DNA of 30,395 bases from a virus, in IMG/VR virus record IMGVR_UViG_3300027900_000008, positions 1-30,395 of that record; one strand, written 5' to 3'. Position 1 is the stretch's first letter. Every line of letters starts with the position of its first letter. Below are positions 953-8,488 of the stretch, piece by piece. Made by a program: the position numbers and the translations under genes. A model generated the notes under the pieces. The model saw nothing but the letters and a program-made list of their open reading frames with translations, ran no database searches and had not been told where the DNA came from.

Positions 953-981
953 TTGACGCCGCCAGCCGGTGCCGCTATGCT
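953..981 (+). promoter_or_regulatory. Sigma70-like promoter for the antisense-type RNA
   Basis: TTGACG at 953-958 and TATGCT at 976-981 are separated by exactly 17 bases, a near-consensus sigma70 arrangement. Transcription would start near 988, just before the complementary element at 993-1002 and the structured RNA that follows. Nothing else in the leader looks like a better promoter. It is a prediction from sequence only. Confidence 0.6.
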
Positions 982-992
982 TTGCGCACCAT

Positions 993-1002
993 TGGCGGAA
1001 TC
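993..1002 (+). promoter_or_regulatory. Antisense target element (seqA-like)
   Basis: The ten bases TGGCGGAATC are the exact reverse complement of GATTCCGCCA at 1058-1067, which covers the loop of the second hairpin in the structured RNA. A few bases on, CTTTGGT (1002-1008) is complementary to ACCAAAG in the closing stem of that RNA (from 1080). In phage P4 the CI RNA pairs in the same way with an upstream element called seqA in its own leader transcript. By that analogy this is the target site. A second copy downstream (seqC) was not clearly found. Confidence 0.45.
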
Positions 1003-1014
1003 TTTGGTACAGCT

Positions 1015-1100
1015 TGAGGCCCCTTTGGCCCATGCTCCACCCCGAAAGGGGAACCGTGATTCCGCCACGGGGAGCAGGGACCAAAGGGGCTTTTGCTTTT
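1015..1100 (+). ncRNA. C4/CI-like antisense RNA (three-way junction)
   Basis: The fold is visible by eye. GCCCCTTTGG (1019-1028) pairs perfectly with CCAAAGGGGC (1081-1090), and TGCTCC (1033-1038) pairs with GGAGCA (1071-1076) across a small internal loop. The junction holds two hairpins: CCCC-GAAA-GGGG (1040-1051, a GNRA tetraloop) and CCGTG-attccgc-CACGG (1054-1070). TTTTGCTTTT follows the closing stem, so the element can also end transcription. One closing stem with two hairpins, a loop complementary to the transcript leader and a promoter directly upstream match the C4 RNA of P1/P7 and CI RNA of P4. Those RNAs keep early or antirepressor genes silent in the lysogen. The family assignment is from memory of its architecture and has not been checked against a model. 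Confidence 0.6.
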
Positions 1101-1393: not shown

Positions 1394-2299
1394 ATGAACA
1401 CACCGAACCTCCGAACCCGTCCGATGGGAATCGTGCGCGGCATGCCCTTTGAGGACTATCTAGCCGTTGACGCACTAAGGGCCTCGTCTATGCGCCTGCT
1501 GGCACGTTCGGCGTGGCACTACAAAAACCGCGTGCCGATGAAGCAAACGCGGCCGATGCTGTGCGGTTCGCTGGTTCACTGCGCCCAGCTTGAGCCTGAT
1601 GCAATGCGCAGCCGATACGCCTTTGTGCCAGACGAAGCCCCGCGCCGTCCGACTGCCGCCCAATGGGGCGCAAAGAACCCGAGCCCAAACAGTGTGGCCG
1701 CCATGAACTGGTGGCGCGATTTTGAGGCTGAATGCAACGGCCGCGACATGGTGACTGCCGACGAGTTCGACATCACAAAACAGCAACTGGCCGCCATCCA
1801 AGCCGAGCCCTACCTGCGCGACCTGTTTGCGAATGGCGAATCGGAGCTGTCGGTGTTCTGGATCGACAAGGCAACCGGCGTTTACTGCAAGGCGCGGCCC
1901 GACTTCATGCAGCGCACTAGCGAAGGCTGGCGCGTTGTCGAACTCAAGAGCACCGCGGACGAGTCCCCCGATGGATTCGCCCGCACCCTGTCGAATCTCG
2001 GATACCACCGCGCCCGCGCTCACTACATCGACGGCATCGAAGCCGCGACCGGGCTGAAGGTGTCCGAATACGTGTTCGCCGTCGTCAGCAGTGCGCCGCC
2101 CGTGCTGGCTGTGCCCTACTGGCTTGACGAAGAAGACGCACAGCAAGGCGCCGACGAGTGCGCCGAACTGCGCGAGCGCTTTGCCTGGTGCATGCGTGAG
2201 AACCAATGGCCGGCGTATGGAACCGGCCCCCAGCTTGTCGGCCTGAAGCCTTGGGCCAAGCGTAACAACGAATTGGAGGTGTCCTTTGTCGATGATTGA
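1394..2299 (+). CDS. RecE/exonuclease VIII-like PD-(D/E)XK nuclease
   Basis: A 301-residue protein with the full motif set of the phage-type exodeoxyribonuclease VIII family (PDDEXK-like). The motifs are a GSLVH box (Gly58, His62), an acidic residue at Glu151 in ESELSVFW, Asp170 in KARPDF, the Glu183-x-Lys185 pair in VVELKST, and the late YHRARAHY helix (204-211), equivalent to the QxxxY motif. Members digest one strand of duplex DNA 5' to 3' to expose single strands for annealing. The next gene, overlapping its end, is a conserved partner in phages. No strong Shine-Dalgarno sequence precedes ATG 1394. The start is chosen because homologous domains begin close to residue 15. Role in recombination or replication is inferred from the family. 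Confidence 0.85.
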   Translation: MNTPNLRTRPMGIVRGMPFEDYLAVDALRASSMRLLARSAWHYKNRVPMKQTRPMLCGSLVHCAQLEPDAMRSRYAFVPDEAPRRPTAAQWGAKNPSPNSVAAMNWWRDFEAECNGRDMVTADEFDITKQQLAAIQAEPYLRDLFANGESELSVFWIDKATGVYCKARPDFMQRTSEGWRVVELKSTADESPDGFARTLSNLGYHRARAHYIDGIEAATGLKVSEYVFAVVSSAPPVLAVPYWLDEEDAQQGADECAELRERFAWCMRENQWPAYGTGPQLVGLKPWAKRNNELEVSFVDD

Positions 2300-3376: not shown

Positions 3377-3949
3377 ATGAGCACAAAAGACGCAATCCGC
3401 CGAGCGCTGCGCGAGCTTGCCGCGCTGCCGACCGATGAGCCGTCGATAGCGGAGAGCCGCATCGAGCGAATCGAGAGCGTGCTGCGTGCAGCTCTGGCCG
3501 CCGACGAAGCGCGGGAGACGGTGGCGTTTCACAACCCGTGGCGCTCGTCGCTGGAGAACTGCATCAGCGGCGACAACTATCTGAGGTCTGGTGAATACCG
3601 CGACTTGATCGAGGAGCTTGACGACCTGTACCGGCTGCGAGCCATCCACCCACCCGCATCCGCTGCGCAGGCCGAGCAGCCCCTTGGGGTCGGTTCGAGC
3701 GCAGGGTTAGGCCCGCTGGCGGAGCCAATGGGCGACTACCCCGAACCAGGGCAGCGCACCTACGACGAGGAAGCGCTGTTTGCGTTTGGCCGGCAGGAAA
3801 GGGCCGCAGAGCGCGAACGGCTGTGCGCAGCGATCAAGGCCGAGGATGACCACTGCTGCGACCAGGGCGATTACATGCTCGACAGCGACGACTGCATCAG
3901 TGTGATCCGCGGGACTTGGGTGCGCCCCGACTACAACCCAAAAGCCTAA
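3377..3949 (+). CDS. Chimeric early protein formed at the left end of the cassette array
   Basis: A 190-residue protein, starting at ATG 3377 (GGGAGA ten bases upstream); an in-frame ATG at 3359 is also possible. Residues 1-100 are a charged helical domain (DAIRRALRELAALPTDE...). Around residues 104-112 the frame crosses the right arm of an attC site, encoding GVGSSAGLGPLAEP. Residues 115-190 are a typical small phage domain (ALFAFGRQERAAERERLCAAI, then CCDQGDYMLDSDDCISVIRG). The stop TAA (3947-3949) lies inside the GCCTAAC core of the next attC. The protein therefore looks like an upstream gene fused to a cassette gene. Both halves are of unknown function. Confidence 0.7.
   Translation: MSTKDAIRRALRELAALPTDEPSIAESRIERIESVLRAALAADEARETVAFHNPWRSSLENCISGDNYLRSGEYRDLIEELDDLYRLRAIHPPASAAQAEQPLGVGSSAGLGPLAEPMGDYPEPGQRTYDEEALFAFGRQERAAERERLCAAIKAEDDHCCDQGDYMLDSDDCISVIRGTWVRPDYNPKA
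3680..3712 (-). other. attC half-site (attC0), right arm only
   Basis: GTTAGGC at 3706-3712 is preceded by the arm TCGGTTCGAGCG with the same extra T as the complete sites, and by the small palindrome CCCCTTGGGG (3680-3689). No matching left arm with a GCCTAAC-type core exists upstream. The right core matches GCCTAAC at 3944, the end of the same unit. I read it as a truncated attC inside the 3377-3949 gene. Confidence 0.65.
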
Positions 3950-4046
3950 CGTTTGAGCTAACTTGCCCGCAAGGGCGCTACGGGAGCAACGATGAACAAG
4001 ACACTGCCGCCCGCCCTTGCGGGTCAAGTTGAGCGAAGTGTTAGGC
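3944..4046 (-). other. attC1
   Basis: Cores GCCTAAC (3944-3950) and GTTAGGC (4040-4046). The arms pair over AACTTG and then CCCGCAAGGGCG, with the single extra T at 4024. The apical loop (about 3977-4008) carries GGGAG (3982-3986) five bases before ATG 3992. The stop of the 3377 gene ends at 3949, exactly at the predicted exchange point. Confidence 0.85.
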
Positions 4047-4198
4047 CGCCGTTCAGGCCGACGCAAGCCCATATGGCTGTTGCGTGGATGCTGCAAGGTC
4101 GGCGACTGCCTCATCACGGCGGGTGGATTTTTAACCCGTACAGCAGCTGGTGGGTGGAGCGGCCGAACGTTCGAGCTAACCTGGACCCAACAGCATGA
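3992..4198 (+). CDS. Cassette 1 mini-protein starting inside attC1
   Basis: The smallest cassette (3950-4167) has one plausible frame. It starts at ATG 3992 in the attC1 loop behind GGGAG, crosses the right arm (ALAGQVERSVRPPF), encodes a short body with many Trp and Tyr residues (MAVAWMLQGRRLPHHGGWIF, then NPYSSWWV), and runs over the cassette boundary into attC2, ending at TGA 4196-4198 (tail PNVRANLDPTA). An internal ATG at 4073 without a clear ribosome binding site would give 41 residues. No family is recognised. Both ends of the 68-residue product are made of attC sequence, so the coding status is uncertain. Confidence 0.4.
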   Translation: MNKTLPPALAGQVERSVRPPFRPTQAHMAVAWMLQGRRLPHHGGWIFNPYSSWWVERPNVRANLDPTA

Positions 4199-4264
4199 AC
4201 AAAATTGACCGAAGCGCGCCCCTGCCGCCTGCTGTTGGGGCTCAGGTTGAGCGAGGGGTTAGGC
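4162..4264 (-). other. attC2
   Basis: Cores GCCGAAC (4162-4168) and GTTAGGC (4258-4264). Paired arms AACCTG then CCCAACAGC/GCTGTTGGGG, with the extra T in the right arm. An ATG in the loop (4195) has no ribosome binding site and opens only a short frame. Cassette 1 ends here with GCCGAA although it opens with GTTAGGC, a single mismatch between its two cores. Confidence 0.8.
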
Positions 4265-4279
4265 GTCATTGGAGGAGCT

Positions 4280-4582
4280 ATGCGAGAGACGACATTCAAG
4301 ATACTGGCTCAGGGCGATGTGCAGATGGCGCACTGCCAAGGCTACATGGTGGCCGGTGGCGCTGATGCGGTGTGCTTCTACATTGACCCAAGCGGCCGTG
4401 CCTACATCAGTGCCAGTACGGAGAGCGAAAGCGGATGCCCTGTTGTGTACGTGTCGCGGGATGACTGCGAGCGAGACACGGAAATTGAGTTCAGCGAGTT
4501 TCAGGGCTGGCGATTTCACGCTGGCGGCGCAGGCAAGACGATTGCGGTGGCGCTGGTGCGCCGTGCGGCTGATGACGCCTAA
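4280..4582 (+). CDS. Cassette 2 protein, 100 aa, unknown
   Basis: The ATG at 4280 follows GGAGGA (4271-4276), an excellent ribosome binding site 15 bases after the attC2 core. The frame stays open upstream into attC2 but that part has no such site. The product begins MRETTFKILAQGDVQMAHCQ and is acidic in the middle (SRDDCERDTEIEFSEFQGW). It looks soluble and beta-rich. The stop TAA (4580-4582) is part of the GCCTAAC core of attC3, so the coding frame ends at the predicted exchange point. No family is recognised. The cassette cores GTTAGGC and GCCTAAC match. Confidence 0.7.
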   Translation: MRETTFKILAQGDVQMAHCQGYMVAGGADAVCFYIDPSGRAYISASTESESGCPVVYVSRDDCERDTEIEFSEFQGWRFHAGGAGKTIAVALVRRAADDA

Positions 4583-4702
4583 CGTTCGAGCTAAGTTGCC
4601 CGCGGAGGCGGCGTTGCCCTGCGGGGCGAAGGAGAATTGACATGACCGAAGAACCGCAGGGCAACGCTGCCGTAGCGGGTCAGCTTGAGCGAGGGGTTCG
4701 GC
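4577..4702 (-). other. attC3
   Basis: Cores GCCTAAC (4577-4583) and GTTCGGC (4696-4702). Inner boxes AAGTTG and CAGCTT, then CCCGCGGAGGC against GCCGTAGCGGG, then a second paired block GCGTTGCCCTGCGG (near 4612) against CCGCAGGGCAACGC (near 4656). The apical loop carries AAGGAG (4629-4634) seven bases before ATG 4642, in frame with the cassette 3 gene. Confidence 0.85.
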
Positions 4703-4731
4703 CTCTGGCTCCGAATCGAAAAGGACTGACG

Positions 4732-5100
4732 ATGACAACGCAACGATTCCACCTCGGCGCCGTACTGAGCATGACGACCGGCAAGCTGCTGTGCCAGATG
4801 GACGACATCTACAAGATCGCGCAGCACCTCGCTGGCGAGCCCGTATGGACGCACCAGCTCGGCCGCGTGATGACCGAGAGCAAGCCTCACTTGCTGGCGC
4901 AGTTCCCGGCGCTTGCGGCCGTGACTGGCGACGAGGTGACGCCGGAGAACTTCGCGGCGTGGCTGTACGAACGGGTCGGCGAGCACGGAGAATGGTTCGA
5001 CGTGGAGCCGATGCCCGAGCACGCGCACCAGAGCATTGACCCGATCAGCGAGCTGGCTGAGAAGGTGCACCCGGACCGCATCCTGACGGTGGGCCACTAG
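4732..5100 (+). CDS. Cassette 3: DUF7736-like phage protein
   Basis: A 122-residue product from ATG 4732, preceded by AAGGA (4721-4725). An alternative ATG at 4642 inside attC3, with a stronger AAGGAG, is in frame and would add 30 residues (MTEEPQGNAAVAGQLERGVR...). The sequence MTTQRFHLGAVLSMTTGKLL, then YKIAQHLAGEPVWTHQLGRV, LLAQFPAL and DPISELAEKVHPDRILTV is the pattern I know from phage proteins filed as DUF7736, of unknown role. The length is normal for that group. TAG 5098-5100 comes two bases before the GCCGAAC core of attC4. The cassette opens with GTTCGGC, so its cores match. Confidence 0.8.
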   Translation: MTTQRFHLGAVLSMTTGKLLCQMDDIYKIAQHLAGEPVWTHQLGRVMTESKPHLLAQFPALAAVTGDEVTPENFAAWLYERVGEHGEWFDVEPMPEHAHQSIDPISELAEKVHPDRILTVGH

Positions 5101-5102
5101 AG

Positions 5103-5188
5103 GCCGAACGATTGAGGAAAGCTGCGCGCGTGACCGGCACCCGGCGCGAACCGGGCCGATGCGCGTCAGCTTGTGCGAGTAGTTCGGC
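5103..5188 (-). other. attC4
   Basis: Cores GCCGAAC (5103-5109) and GTTCGGC (5182-5188). Inner boxes AAGCTG and CAGCTT with CGCGC/GCGCG and the extra T in the right arm. Inside lies a GC-rich hairpin, CCGGCACCCGG...CCGGGCCG. The loop has no ribosome binding site with a start codon. Confidence 0.8.
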
Positions 5189-5223
5189 TGGGGCCGGAGC
5201 GAAGTGACTTTAAGGAGCGACGA

Positions 5224-5559
5224 ATGCACACAAGGACAATTTCATGGGCTGGCCGTCAGATGGTGCTGGCTTGCGATGGCCTATGCGGCAAGGCGTGGGG
5301 CATCACGTCGCGGCCGAAGGTGCAACTCAGCGACGACCATGACGACGTGGCGTTTCTGGCCGATTGCGAGCTGCAAGAAGCGCCGACAGACCCAGGAACC
5401 TACGAAGGCGGCTGCTCGAAGCCGCGCGGGCCGGCCGCGATGAACAAGTGGTGCGCTCGCGAGTGCGAGCGCAGCGACATTGACGAAACGGTGGACAAGA
5501 TCGCGCTGCCTGACTTCAGCAAGCGCCTGCTTAACCAGCCATGGAAGCACGCAACCTGA
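5224..5559 (+). CDS. Cassette 4: cysteine-containing phage protein, 111 aa
   Basis: ATG 5224 follows AAGGAG (5213-5218) at good spacing. The product carries Cys17, Cys21, Cys50, Cys65, Cys79 and Cys83 in a spread (ACDGLCGKAWG, then DCEL, GGCSKPRG, WCARECERS) that suggests a small zinc-binding fold. I recall similar proteins in phages of Proteobacteria (VLACDG...KAWG and NKWCARECERS), always uncharacterised. TGA 5557-5559 stops one base before the GCCGAAC core of attC5, and the cassette opens with GTTCGGC, so the cores match. It looks complete. No membrane segment is visible. Confidence 0.75.
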   Translation: MHTRTISWAGRQMVLACDGLCGKAWGITSRPKVQLSDDHDDVAFLADCELQEAPTDPGTYEGGCSKPRGPAAMNKWCARECERSDIDETVDKIALPDFSKRLLNQPWKHAT

Positions 5560-5560
5560 A

Positions 5561-5689
5561 GCCGAACGTTCGAGCTAAGCTGCCCGCGGAGGAAGCCGAT
5601 GACCGGCCGCGCAGGGACGATGGCAACGCCCGCCCGGAGCGGCCGGGCATTGGCTGCCGTAGCGGGTCAGCTTGAGCGAGGGGTTGTGC
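5561..5689 (-). other. attC5
   Basis: Cores GCCGAAC (5561-5567) and GTTGTGC (5683-5689). Inner boxes AAGCTG/CAGCTT and CCCGCGG/CCGTAGCGGG with the extra T. The right core belongs to the next gene unit, which ends with the complementary GCACAAC at 6002. The loop holds GGAGG (5588-5592) and ATG 5599. Confidence 0.85.
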
Positions 5690-5715
5690 TTCACCCATCC
5701 GAAGCGCGCAGATAG
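5599..5715 (+). CDS. Possible attC5-encoded leader peptide, 38 aa
   Basis: ATG 5599 lies in the attC5 loop, six bases after GGAGG. The frame (MTGRAGTMATPARSGRALAA...) crosses the right arm, giving the recurring string GQLERGV, and stops at TAG 5713-5715. The ribosome binding site of the cassette gene (GGAGAG) follows within a few bases, with its ATG at 5728. Such spacing would allow translational coupling. It may be a regulatory leader rather than a functional peptide. Evidence is only the initiation signals and the neat end. Confidence 0.35.
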   Translation: MTGRAGTMATPARSGRALAAVAGQLERGVVLHPSEARR

Positions 5716-5724
5716 TGGAGAGCA
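5678..5724 (+). repeat. 47-bp direct repeat, copy A (cassette leader)
   Basis: Bases 5678-5724 are identical to 7752-7798. The repeat covers the end of the attC right arm, the GTTGTGC core and the leader up to the ribosome binding site of the gene. The genes that follow are unrelated. This points to a shared or exchanged cassette 5' module. Confidence 0.9.
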
Positions 5725-5727
5725 GAC

Positions 5728-6000
5728 ATGGCGACGATCTACAAGTACCCGCTGGAGCCGGGGCGCACGCAACTGAACCTGCCGCGCGGCGCCCAGGCGC
5801 TGACTGTGCAGATGCAGCACGGCAGCCCGTGCCTGTGGGCAAAGGTGGACCCGATGCAGCCGACCGAGCCGCGCACCTTTGACGTGTACGGCACCGGCCA
5901 CCAGATGCCGGACGACCCGCGCCTGCTGTACGTGGCGACGTTCCAGATGGACGGCGGCGCGCTGGTGTGGCACGTATTCGAGGTGCCGGCCGGCGCGTGA
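5728..6000 (+). CDS. Cassette 5: DUF7352-like phage protein
   Basis: A 90-residue product from ATG 5728 behind GGAGAG. The order IYKYPLEPGRTQLNLPRGAQ, then LTVQMQHGSPCLWAKVDP, YGTGHQMPDD and VATFQMDGGALVWHVFEV is the signature I know from DUF7352, a compact beta-strand phage protein of unknown function, usually 85-100 residues. This one looks complete. TGA 5998-6000 stops one base before the GCACAAC core of attC6. Its cassette opens with GTTGTGC, so the rare core variant occurs at both ends of the unit. The first 42 bases of the cassette are repeated at the start of cassette 10. Confidence 0.85.
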   Translation: MATIYKYPLEPGRTQLNLPRGAQALTVQMQHGSPCLWAKVDPMQPTEPRTFDVYGTGHQMPDDPRLLYVATFQMDGGALVWHVFEVPAGA

Positions 6001-6001
6001 A

Positions 6002-6097
6002 GCACAACGACGAAGTGGAGCCGCCACGCGCGGCAGGAGAGCAACGATGACCACAGAAGCAACGCCGCGCGAGGTCGGCTCGCACGCAGGGTTAGGC
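6002..6097 (-). other. attC6
   Basis: Cores GCACAAC (6002-6008) and GTTAGGC (6091-6097). Inner boxes GAGCCG/CGGCTC, then CCACGCGCGGC against GCCGCGCGAGG, with the extra T. The loop carries AGGAG (6035-6039) seven bases before ATG 6047, the only start found for cassette 6. Confidence 0.85.
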
Positions 6098-6346
6098 CCG
6101 GCGCCGGAGCGTGCCGAACTGTGCCAACCCGAGGGGCTGAAGTTCGACGCGTTCGGAGAGCCGCGCACCCGATACGTGCGCGTGACGCTAAACGGCAGCC
6201 ACTGTGTGATGACAGCGGCCGAGGGAGACGCGCACGTTGAGGAGGCGCGCAACAGCGGAGACCCTGATTGGGCTCGTTACGTGGTGCGCGACGTGTGGCT
6301 CAGCGAGCGTGAGTTTGACGACCTGCCCGAGTTCGAGGGGTTCTAG
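6047..6346 (+). CDS. Cassette 6 protein, start codon inside attC6
   Basis: A 99-residue product. Between the attC6 core and residue 56 there is no in-frame ATG, GTG or TTG, so the ATG in the attC6 loop (6047, behind AGGAG 6035-6039) is the only reasonable start. Residues 1-20 (MTTEATPREVGSHAGLGPAP) are encoded by the attC loop and right arm. The body (RTRYVRVTLNGSHCVMTAAE, then YVVRDVWLSEREFDDLPEFE) looks like a small two-layer phage protein whose C-terminal motif (SEREFDDLPEFEGF) is familiar from phage accessory proteins of unknown role. TAG 6344-6346 comes one base before the GCCTAAC core of attC7. Confidence 0.75.
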   Translation: MTTEATPREVGSHAGLGPAPERAELCQPEGLKFDAFGEPRTRYVRVTLNGSHCVMTAAEGDAHVEEARNSGDPDWARYVVRDVWLSEREFDDLPEFEGF

Positions 6347-6347
6347 G

Positions 6348-6467
6348 GCCTAACGATTGAGCTGAACTGCGCCCGGCGGCGCGCGAGGAGTAACGATGAC
6401 AGACAAAGCTACCGAGAACCACCAGCCTAGCCCGCCGATGGGCGTCAGTTCGAGCGAGGGGTTAGGC
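6348..6467 (-). other. attC7
   Basis: Cores GCCTAAC (6348-6354) and GTTAGGC (6461-6467). Inner boxes GAACTG/CAGTTC, then CGCCCGGCGG against CCGATGGGCG with the extra T. The loop carries GAGGAG (6385-6390) five bases before ATG 6396. Confidence 0.85.
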
Positions 6468-6740
6468 CCGCTGGTGGATCGCCTGAAATCCGAACGAGCT
6501 GTACAAGATGCGGCCATTGCCTGCCTGCGGGCTGACTTGCGCGAGTGCGCAACAGTGCGCGACGCCGAAATTGAGCGGCTGCGACGCGCCCTGCACGACA
6601 TTGCCGAGGAATGGGCTGGGGCCGAGTGCGGCGAGCCCGTACACGCACAAGAAGCCTACGCCATCGGACTGGCGAAGCGGATGTATGCGCTGGCCGTGGA
6701 AGGCATGGGGCCCAACGTTCGAGTTAAGCCGCCCGCGTAG
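6396..6740 (+). CDS. Cassette 7 coiled-coil protein, both ends in attC
   Basis: A 114-residue product from ATG 6396 in the attC7 loop (GAGGAG five bases upstream). The attC arm encodes MGVSSSEGLGPL. Residues 28-70 form a charged helix likely to be a coiled coil (VRDAEIERLRRALHDIAEEW). The C-terminal part (EAYAIGLAKRMYALAVEG) is another helix of a kind common in phage accessory proteins. There is no stop before the GCCCAAC core of attC8. The frame crosses the predicted exchange point and ends at TAG 6738-6740, adding PNVRVKPPA from the next cassette. Function is unknown. Confidence 0.7.
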   Translation: MTDKATENHQPSPPMGVSSSEGLGPLVDRLKSERAVQDAAIACLRADLRECATVRDAEIERLRRALHDIAEEWAGAECGEPVHAQEAYAIGLAKRMYALAVEGMGPNVRVKPPA

Positions 6741-6836
6741 GACGGACGGCTTGCCCGTGCGGCCGATGATGAACCAAGGCGGCTGCACGGGCAAGCTGGC
6801 CGGCCGTAGCGGGTCGGCTTGAACGAGTGGTTAGGC
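6710..6836 (-). other. attC8
   Basis: Cores GCCCAAC (6710-6716) and GTTAGGC (6830-6836). A long stem: AAGCCG/CGGCTT, CCCGCGTAGG against CCGTAGCGGG, then GGCTTGCCCGTGC against GCACGGGCAAGC. The tip holds two ATGs (6766, 6769) without a ribosome binding site. The left core differs by one base from the core that opens cassette 7. Confidence 0.85.
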
Positions 6837-6855
6837 ATCGCCTGTTGGAGAACCA

Positions 6856-7158
6856 ATGAACTACACCGAAGACTTCCACGGCATACGTTACAGCGCCAAG
6901 CGCGGCGACGTGCTGGAGATTCGCGCCGATGCGGAAGAGTTTTACTTTGCCTGTTGGAATGGCGTGCTGAACTTGATGAGCCGGAACATTGGCGGGCGAA
7001 CCGCTGTGTTCGTAGCCGACTGCGACTTTTACCAAGGGGCCAAGGAATTGCTTGTGAAGGTGCAGCCGGGAACGCCGAGCTATATGAAAGAGCTTTCTCG
7101 CGTGCGCAAGGTGAGCCGCGAAGAGGCTGCAATGCATGGGCTGGGGCGTCTTTGGTGA
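6856..7158 (+). CDS. Cassette 8 protein, 100 aa, unknown
   Basis: ATG 6856 follows TTGGAG about nine bases upstream. The product (MNYTEDFHGIRYSAKRGDVL, then EEFYFACWNGVLNLMSRNIG and VFVADCDFYQGAKELLVKVQ) is mixed alpha/beta, has no membrane segment and does not match a family I know. The C-terminus is basic and helical (KELSRVRKVSREEAAMHGLG). TGA 7156-7158 comes one base before the GCCTAAC core of attC9. The cassette opens with GTTAGGC and closes with GCCTAAC, so the unit is internally consistent. Confidence 0.7.
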   Translation: MNYTEDFHGIRYSAKRGDVLEIRADAEEFYFACWNGVLNLMSRNIGGRTAVFVADCDFYQGAKELLVKVQPGTPSYMKELSRVRKVSREEAAMHGLGRLW

Positions 7159-7159
7159 T

Positions 7160-7211
7160 GCCTAACGTTCGAGCTAAGCCGCCGAAGGTCGGCTTGAGCG
7201 AGTAGTTAGGC
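7160..7211 (-). other. attC9 (minimal site)
   Basis: A 52-base site: cores GCCTAAC (7160-7166) and GTTAGGC (7205-7211), inner boxes AAGCCG and CGGCTT, a short tip around CCGAAGG, and the single extra T at 7189. It is the clearest site in the array for seeing that its reverse complement, not its + strand, follows the canonical attC order. Confidence 0.9.
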
Positions 7212-7246
7212 CTGGTTCCGAAGCGCGAACAACTTGGAGAGCAAAG

Positions 7247-7717
7247 ATGGATGACACCGCCGCGCTGATACAGCGCCTGTACGACGAGGCCAGCCAGTGC
7301 GAACTGTTCGGCATCACGAAGCCTGCCGCGCTGCTGCGCGAGGCCGCAGAAGCCCTGCAGCATGCCGCCAACTTGCAGGCAATGAGCGAGTTTGCGGAAG
7401 TGGTGACTGCCGGGCACCTAAGCGATGCCGAACCGGTGGCGTGGGGCTTCCCGAACAGCGCCATCACCGGCGGCAGCCGCTGGTTGATGCTGCGCGAGCA
7501 GGTGCCGGCCGATGACCAGTACGGCGGCGCGATGTGGGTGCCGCTCTACGCCGAGCCGCAAGCGGCGGCCGAGATTGAGCGCCTGCGTGTTGAGCTGGCG
7601 GATGCCAAGCACGCGATGCGTGCCTACGCCAAAGAAAACCCGCGCCATGAGTACCAAGGCCGCACGCAAGACCCGAATGGCGTGCACGCTTGGCTGGCGC
7701 GCAACGACAAGGCCTAA
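7247..7717 (+). CDS. Cassette 9: Ea22-like accessory protein, 156 aa
   Basis: ATG 7247 follows GGAGAG. Residues 1-55 are helical (TAALIQRLYDEASQCELFGI, ALLREAAEALQHAANLQAM). The middle has the block EPVAWGF...GSRWLMLREQVP...MWVPLYAEPQ, the VAW/PLY pattern of many phage accessory proteins related to lambda Ea22, which appears to be a swappable small domain. A helix rich in Arg and Glu follows (AAEIERLRVELADAKHAMRA). The stop TAA (7715-7717) is inside the GCCTAAC core of attC10. The role is unknown. Proteins of this group are not essential for growth in the phages where they have been tested. Confidence 0.75.
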   Translation: MDDTAALIQRLYDEASQCELFGITKPAALLREAAEALQHAANLQAMSEFAEVVTAGHLSDAEPVAWGFPNSAITGGSRWLMLREQVPADDQYGGAMWVPLYAEPQAAAEIERLRVELADAKHAMRAYAKENPRHEYQGRTQDPNGVHAWLARNDKA

Positions 7718-7763
7718 CGTTCGAATTCAGCCGCCGTAGGTCGGCTGGAATGAGGGGTTGTGC
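7712..7763 (-). other. attC10 (minimal site)
   Basis: Another 52-base site: cores GCCTAAC (7712-7718) and GTTGTGC (7757-7763), inner boxes CAGCCG and CGGCTG, tip around CCGTAGG, extra T in the right arm. The GTTGTGC core pairs with the GCACAAC half-core at 8490-8496 that ends cassette 10. Confidence 0.9.
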
Positions 7764-7798
7764 TTCACCCATCCGAAGCGCGCAGATAGTGGAGAGCA
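7752..7798 (+). repeat. 47-bp direct repeat, copy B (cassette leader)
   Basis: Identical to 5678-5724. It covers the last bases of attC10, the GTTGTGC core and the leader with the ribosome binding site of the next gene. Cassette 9 has a related but shorter leader (CCGAAGCGCG followed by GGAGAGCAAAGATG). Confidence 0.9.
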
Positions 7799-7801
7799 AA
7801 G

Positions 7802-8488
7802 ATGATGATGAGCCAAGTGCAGCAGCGAGGCCGGGTGACGTTCCCGGAGTTCACGGGCGAACGCATCTACATGCGCGAGTTCACCAAGGCCGCCGGCCTG
7901 CCGCGCGACCTGGCACGCTGGCAACCGACCGTTGACGCCATGCTTGACGGCGTGGACACGAGCGGGCCAATCTTCCTGATGGTGGACCAGGCCCCGGTGA
8001 AGGCGGCGACGACGCATCGCCGGCCGGGCCTGCATGTGGATGGCTACTGGCACCCGGCATTGCAGGCGCACGGCGGCGGGGGAGGTGGCGGCCACATTCA
8101 CCGGCCCGCAGAGCCCGTGGGCGGGCACAGTCACAACCGAGGCGGCCACCGCGGCACGCCGACGCCGACAACGCCGGCCATCCCCGAAGGCGGCCACTCG
8201 CACCGCAGGCCGGGCGGCCACTTTCACGCTGGCGACGATGACGAGGCGTTGATCCTGGCAAGCGACGTGCTGGGCTGCGCCGCCTACGTGGGCCACTTTG
8301 ACGGCCAACCCGGGGCCGGTGGTGACTGCGCCCACATTGACGCCAGCGGCCTGCTGCGCGTGGACATGGAGCCGGGGCGCGTGTGGGCCGGGCACACGCT
8401 CACGATGCTGCACGAAGCCCTACCGGTGCGCCGCGACTGCCTGAGAACCGTGGTGCGGCTGAACGTGAAACGGTGGCGCGCAGCGTGA
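7802..8488 (+). CDS. Cassette 10: His/Gly-rich protein, possible 2OG-Fe(II) oxygenase fold
   Basis: A 228-residue product starting at one of three ATGs (7802, 7805, 7808) behind GGAGAG. Residues 1-88 and 146-228 look like one domain, interrupted by a low-complexity stretch (90-142) with seven Gly in a row and ten His in pairs (GGHSH, GGHFH). The flanks show His78-x-Asp80 (RPGLHVDGYW), a late His204 (TLTMLHEALP) and Arg215, the order and rough spacing of the iron and cosubstrate ligands of 2-oxoglutarate oxygenases. This is a weak match, so the reaction is not assigned. TGA 8486-8488 precedes a GCACAAC half-core. It is by far the longest cassette gene. Confidence 0.65.
   Translation: MMMSQVQQRGRVTFPEFTGERIYMREFTKAAGLPRDLARWQPTVDAMLDGVDTSGPIFLMVDQAPVKAATTHRRPGLHVDGYWHPALQAHGGGGGGGHIHRPAEPVGGHSHNRGGHRGTPTPTTPAIPEGGHSHRRPGGHFHAGDDDEALILASDVLGCAAYVGHFDGQPGAGGDCAHIDASGLLRVDMEPGRVWAGHTLTMLHEALPVRRDCLRTVVRLNVKRWRAA

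Follow-up and report, generated by a model that had tools for sequence, protein, structure and literature searches.

Structure of the locus

The DNA analyzed in the present study (the window) is a phage contig of 30,395 nt from IMG/VR, which is probably incomplete and lacks ~4.5 kb relative to contig G005. Its early genes are carried on the plus strand and its structural genes on the minus strand, and its portal is shared with contigs G004 and G005 at 91% identity. Ahead of a gene for an exonuclease VIII-like protein, and on the same strand, lies a gap (~824–1393) in which none of the reading frames showed a clear coding signal. This gap harbors a putative small RNA, with the following features:

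953–981, plus strand: sigma-70-like promoter, TTGACG-17-TATGCT; promoter-like sequences occur at the same place in G005 and G064
988–1008, plus strand: 5′ leader hairpin presenting the target, as obtained by folding; probable start site ~988
993–1002, plus strand: leader target TGGCGGAATC, the exact complement of 1058–1067, with 7 of 10 pairs covarying among three phages
1019–1038, plus strand: 5′ arm of the closing (terminator) stem, in the segments 1019–1028, 1029–1031, and 1033–1038
1040–1051, plus strand: hairpin 2, CCCC-GAAA-GGGG, as obtained by folding
1054–1070, plus strand: hairpin 3, CCGTG-ATTCCGC-CACGG, with the antisense loop, as obtained by folding
1058–1067, plus strand: antisense loop sequence GATTCCGCCA, the exact complement of the leader target at 993–1002
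1071–1090, plus strand: 3′ arm of the closing (terminator) stem, including a conserved GGAGCAG segment
1091–1100, plus strand: T-rich tail TTTTGCTTTT, with the core TTTTGCTTT common to the three members
1394–2299, plus strand: exonuclease VIII-like protein

The promoter-like site (TTGACG at 953–958, 17 nt, TATGCT at 976–981) was the only one in 600–1500, where 0.3 were expected. Downstream of the leader, a three-way-junction RNA occupies 1019–1090, and its second hairpin bears the exact 10-nt complement of the leader; the loop proper is 7 nt long (1059–1065), and the complement reaches beyond it into the hairpin-3 stem, by 1 nt on the 5′ side and by 2 nt on the 3′ side. The closing stem consists of an exact 10-bp base (1019–1028/1081–1090), followed by 1029–1031/1077–1079 and 1033–1038/1071–1076, and then runs into the tail, the core of which is also able to pair with GAGCAGGG (1072–1079) in an alternative fold. 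The promoter, the exact 10-base leader/loop complement, the three-way junction, the 10-bp stem end, and the T-rich tail, all named in an original prediction made from the DNA alone, were thus confirmed. A second complement, between CTTTGGT (1002–1008) and ACCAAAG (1080–1086) inside the closing stem, may be due to chance.

Minimum free energy z-scores reached −4.7 for 986–1100 and −6.6 for 1017–1093, compared with a lowest z of −2.63 among 150 random 80-nt windows of the contig, and the RNA region was the sole strong folding outlier in 500–1500. A coding explanation was rejected, as the open reading frame at 947–1303 has a good ribosome-binding site but neither a coding signal nor a protein family, and G005 differs in the frame that runs through the tail. 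Moreover, none of the open reading frames crossing or following the RNA matched an Icd-like or other known family.

Relatives and covariation

A covariance model built from the single sequence 1017–1093, with the leader left out, matched a second copy in G005 (L099:18575–18648, 29.8 bits, E 1.4e-4). A third copy, in L135/G064, was found by a DNA pattern taken from the 3′ arm and the tail, again with no use of the leader, and scored 37.5 bits with the same model, bringing the known members of the RNA to three. Both relatives keep a promoter-like site (TTGCAA-17-CATACT in G005, and CATAAT with a weak −35 in G064), the fold, the tail, and the leader–loop complement. In G005, the leader CCGCTGGCACG and the loop CGTGCCAGCGG are exactly complementary over 11 nt, and the L135/G064 leader GCGCTCGAACCGC matches its own loop GCGGTTCGAGCGC over 13 nt, both at nearly the same spacing from the −10 box and from the loop as in the window. 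In the 10-pair register shared by the three members, all cells were Watson–Crick (30/30), with compensatory double changes in seven of the pairs and three pairs invariant; covariation in related phages, put forward as a check in the original prediction, was therefore found for the leader–loop pair in two relatives. Leader identity between members was 4–7 of 10 positions, indicating that the letters are partly related. Each leader paired with its own hairpin at −22.9, −28.6, or −29.5 kcal/mol, compared with −7.0 to −15.2 kcal/mol for mixed pairs.

In 2.1 Mb of sequence, the architecture with a T-rich tail was detected at these three loci and in one unrelated element, and it was never seen in three local shuffles of the same 2.1 Mb, which served as the control because inverted repeats survive reversal and make reversed sequence unsuitable. 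The unrelated element (L113, 12459–12543) was rejected as an RNA of this type due to its overlapping inverted repeats, AATTGACAAT and CCCCTGCCCCTGAC; many CGCCCCTA repeats lie beside it, and it resembles an operator or a site of replication. No match was obtained when the leader was searched as an exact pattern, the matches of the pattern CCGAAAGGGGAACCGTG were unrelated, and blastn against phage and plasmid records returned only short chance-level pieces. A DNA pattern run on 399 genomes from the order to which the Rubrivivax genome belongs yielded 13 matches, none with the architecture, and two further patterns added no member except a doubtful element in L220. The latter (reverse strand, 5223–5340) lies immediately ahead of an HNH-type gene and has a leader–loop complement ATGAGCAAC/GTTGCTCAT and a closing stem of 11 bp; it had no Rfam match and is possibly a separate C4-type RNA.

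Competing folds

Folding was run on transcripts cut at each 3′ end, and the calculation is an equilibrium (thermodynamic) rather than a kinetic one. In truncated transcripts of all three members, the leader–loop helix had a probability of ~0.9–1 from emergence of the loop to ~18 nt past it, and almost vanished when a sufficient part of the 3′ arm of the closing stem was present. With the complete U tail the helix partly returned in G005 (0.23) and G064 (0.54), and the two full-length folds were apart by 9.9 kcal/mol in the window and by 0.2 and 0.4 kcal/mol in G005 and G064, respectively. The tail core and the GGAGCAG segment, both conserved, are paired with each other in the leader–loop fold, a possible reason for their conservation. 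When the leader was blocked, the lower terminator stem began a few nucleotides earlier; the full terminator stem was predicted with a free leader too, and regulation would therefore depend on kinetics outside this equilibrium calculation. Shuffled leaders captured the loop in 4, 4, and 9 of 300 cases for the three members, and P1 C4 folded with its a1/b1 sites showed the same transient cis pairing in this calculation.

Relationship to C4, CI, and other antisense RNAs

The locus had been described as a C4/CI-like antisense immunity RNA. The part of this description that holds is an RNA with an antisense loop and its own leader target, backed by covariation in two relatives, together with the C4 order of closing stem, short hairpin, and antisense-loop hairpin; membership in C4 does not hold. 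The scan with the Rfam C4 model (RF01695), which the original prediction had named as a check, detected nothing in the window with the threshold relaxed to E 10, nothing at the gathering score, and nothing at 850–1200 with permissive filters, whereas P1 C4 scored 68.8 bits in the same search as a positive control. Similarly, no C4 was found by this model in 28 phage contigs, the window among them, or by Rfam scans of the relatives. Membership in RF01695 is judged by a covariance-model score >45 bits, which the window RNA does not attain, and we conclude that this RNA is not a member of Rfam C4.

At the level of individual features, the window RNA resembles C4 of P1/P7 (RF01695, with its target RF03163) in having a long closing stem that encloses a short tetraloop hairpin and then an antisense-loop hairpin, as revealed by comparing its folds with the P1 alignment. 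It also has a loop complementary to an upstream leader site (993–1002 with 1058–1067, likewise in both relatives), and the transient cis pairing would occur before the closing stem is complete. Judging from the promoter-like site, target and loop would lie in one transcript, as in C4. In contrast, it carries one loop complement of 10–13 nt, whereas C4 has two of 7 nt (b′ in the loop and a′ single-stranded 3′ of it); no second antisense segment a′ is present, the segment 3′ of hairpin 3 being paired in the closing stem. Unlike in C4, a U-rich terminator-like tail concludes the closing stem, and neither a2/b2 sites before icd/ant, nor these genes, nor a second target near a gene start were found. 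A further hallmark of C4 is RNase P cleavage at the 5′ end of its closing stem. The processing and loops of C4 have been described previously (PMC5320573).

Premature termination of the early operon, brought about by the RNA in trans, is characteristic of CI. In the satellite phage P4, the CI small RNA pairs with an upstream complement in its leader and is tied to transcription termination (PMC4825925), and matching CI/leader complements were seen in the P4 sequence. The window RNA is like P4 CI (seqA, seqB, seqC) in its predicted pairing with an upstream complement in its own leader, but only half of this arrangement is present, namely the seqA-like upstream site without a downstream seqC equivalent, so that it does not qualify as CI by this feature; it also lacks a kil/alpha operon and RNA-model similarity. 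Further parallels come from plasmids. In pT181-type attenuation, an early helix and a terminator compete for a leader segment, and in the kissing loops of ColE1 RNAI/RNAII, complementary 7-nt loops confer specificity. Both traits are echoed in the window RNA, although the plasmid antisense RNAs are made from the opposite strand, whereas here antisense and target would share one transcript.

Proposed mechanism

The anatomy of the locus, its non-coding nature, the conservation of the leader–loop complement, the member-specific pairing energies, and the two competing folds, all established by sequence and computation, lead us to favor, with modest confidence, an RNA that serves as attenuator and antisense alike, is self-contained in holding the antitarget as well as the target, and follows C4/CI-type logic. 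In such a scheme, an independent gene would be transcribed into a bistable small RNA of ~113 nt that is antisense and target at once. During synthesis, the leader would pair with the hairpin-3 loop; as the 3′ arm of the closing stem emerges, the stem and the U-rich tail would form an intrinsic terminator, and hairpin 3 would be freed. The exposed loop of the finished RNA could then pair in trans with the leader of new transcripts of the same phage type, blocking the early leader–loop helix and favoring termination. The expected result would be negative feedback on whatever lies downstream, with specificity against phages having the same leader–loop pair and perhaps an effect on immunity or superinfection. 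Target, antisense, and terminator would thus be fused in one unit.

More tentatively, the three members may represent a new RNA family, a portable unit of ~150 bp whose own promoter would drive one transcript comprising the target leader, the antisense loop, and the terminator. Such a unit would act as a self-recognizing and self-limiting switch, its specificity drifting by paired leader/loop changes and independent of a repressor protein or a fixed operon. Most known self-pairing immunity RNAs come from relatives of P1/P7 and P4, and the same layout in environmental phages, with paired target/loop change, a built-in terminator, and no detectable kinship, would point to more than one origin of this solution. 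The RNA would also offer a compact unit for testing RNA-based self-recognition by swapping matched segments.

Alternative explanations

A less probable yet serious alternative is a folding switch in cis only, in which the leader–loop helix is a transient folding guide, or an intramolecular pseudoknot, that times or stabilizes the RNA with no pairing in trans. The high probability of cis pairing predicted for truncated transcripts of all three members is consistent with this, as is the leader being the sole full loop complement in each phage record. A structural helix, however, needs no turnover of its letters, yet seven of the ten pairs have changed on both sides and the mixed pairs are weak; specificity therefore fits better than a structural helix, a result that action in cis alone could still accommodate.

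It is rather unlikely that the RNA uses its loop or leader to target messages of the host or other phage messages in trans, like other prophage small RNAs, with the leader–loop pair as an internal brake. Its own promoter and terminator, gene size, and variable, moron-like positions would suit such a role, but the complement is conserved as a pair, which points to its own leader as the partner. Lower still stands a terminated operon leader RNA, comparable to the lambda 6S/late-leader RNA and read through when a phage antiterminator is made. The RNA lies upstream of, and on the same strand as, genes leading to terminase in G005 and G064, and precedes the exonuclease on the same strand in the window. 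Against this, the window RNA is not ahead of late genes, the RNA is missing at these places from close relatives that have the same portal, no antiterminator gene was identified, and the leader–loop complement would have no role.

An ordinary strong intrinsic terminator with a chance leader complement is strongly disfavored: the closing stem and T tail alone are terminator-like, but a 10-nt complement to hairpin 3 did not arise in any of 20,000 dinucleotide-shuffled leaders (0.09% had one to some part of the RNA body), and two relatives, located by searches in which the leader played no part, have the complement again in other letters. Least credible is a structural RNA of the particle like the phi29 packaging RNA, for although the three-way junction and the complementary loops covarying between phages recall it, G004, a close relative with a highly identical terminase and portal, shows no such RNA in its 30 kb contig, the G064 terminase differs, and pairings of 10–13 bp far exceed the interlocking 4-nt loops of phi29.

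Genomic setting

The original prediction also had the RNA controlling the exonuclease operon and a cassette array, which the comparison of relatives does not support. The RNA is absent before the gene at the exonuclease position in G004 and G005, where a short element, TAGGGTTTCCMCCGATGCGCAGTAGCAC (~1343–1376 in the window), is retained immediately ahead of that gene in both contigs, and the RNA is likewise absent upstream of a 74% identical exonuclease on another contig. Because these relatives lack it, the RNA is an accessory unit that is not fixed in the exonuclease operon. Its locus differs in each of the three phages, the next same-strand gene being the exonuclease in the window, in G005 an open reading frame weakly matching O-like replication proteins, and in G064 a small open reading frame; the L135/G064 phage also has a different terminase and an Erf/exonuclease region.

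Neither a tyrosine integrase nor an HTH_3 protein/repressor was found in the window, G004, or G005, with the window ~4.5 kb short relative to G005, and lysogenic immunity is accordingly offered only as a hypothesis. The RNA might, as the original prediction suggested, take the place of a protein repressor. No full-length target was found elsewhere in any of the three phage records. In the window, no second target copy precedes a gene, and only 9-nt matches occur, at 2586 and 12582; the former (GGCGGAATC, 2586–2594) falls within the coding sequence of the exonuclease operon's second gene and is a possible second target, at a frequency within chance. A relative of the exonuclease in a Rubrivivax genome only hints at a host among the beta-proteobacteria.

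In addition, the window contains a cassette array at 3679–8400, with attC-like ends (GCCTAAC...GTTAGGC) and repeat families D1–D6 around approximately nine small open reading frames; integron cassettes in phages have been reported (PMC9892861). Finally, a dispersed motif, TAGGGTTTNNCCCNATG, an imperfect palindrome of the form TAGGG-N5-CCCTA, occurs at 1346 and 3328 in the window and in several copies in G004 and G005. Its copies sit upstream of early operons in this phage group, and a phage regulator probably uses it as an operator or promoter element.
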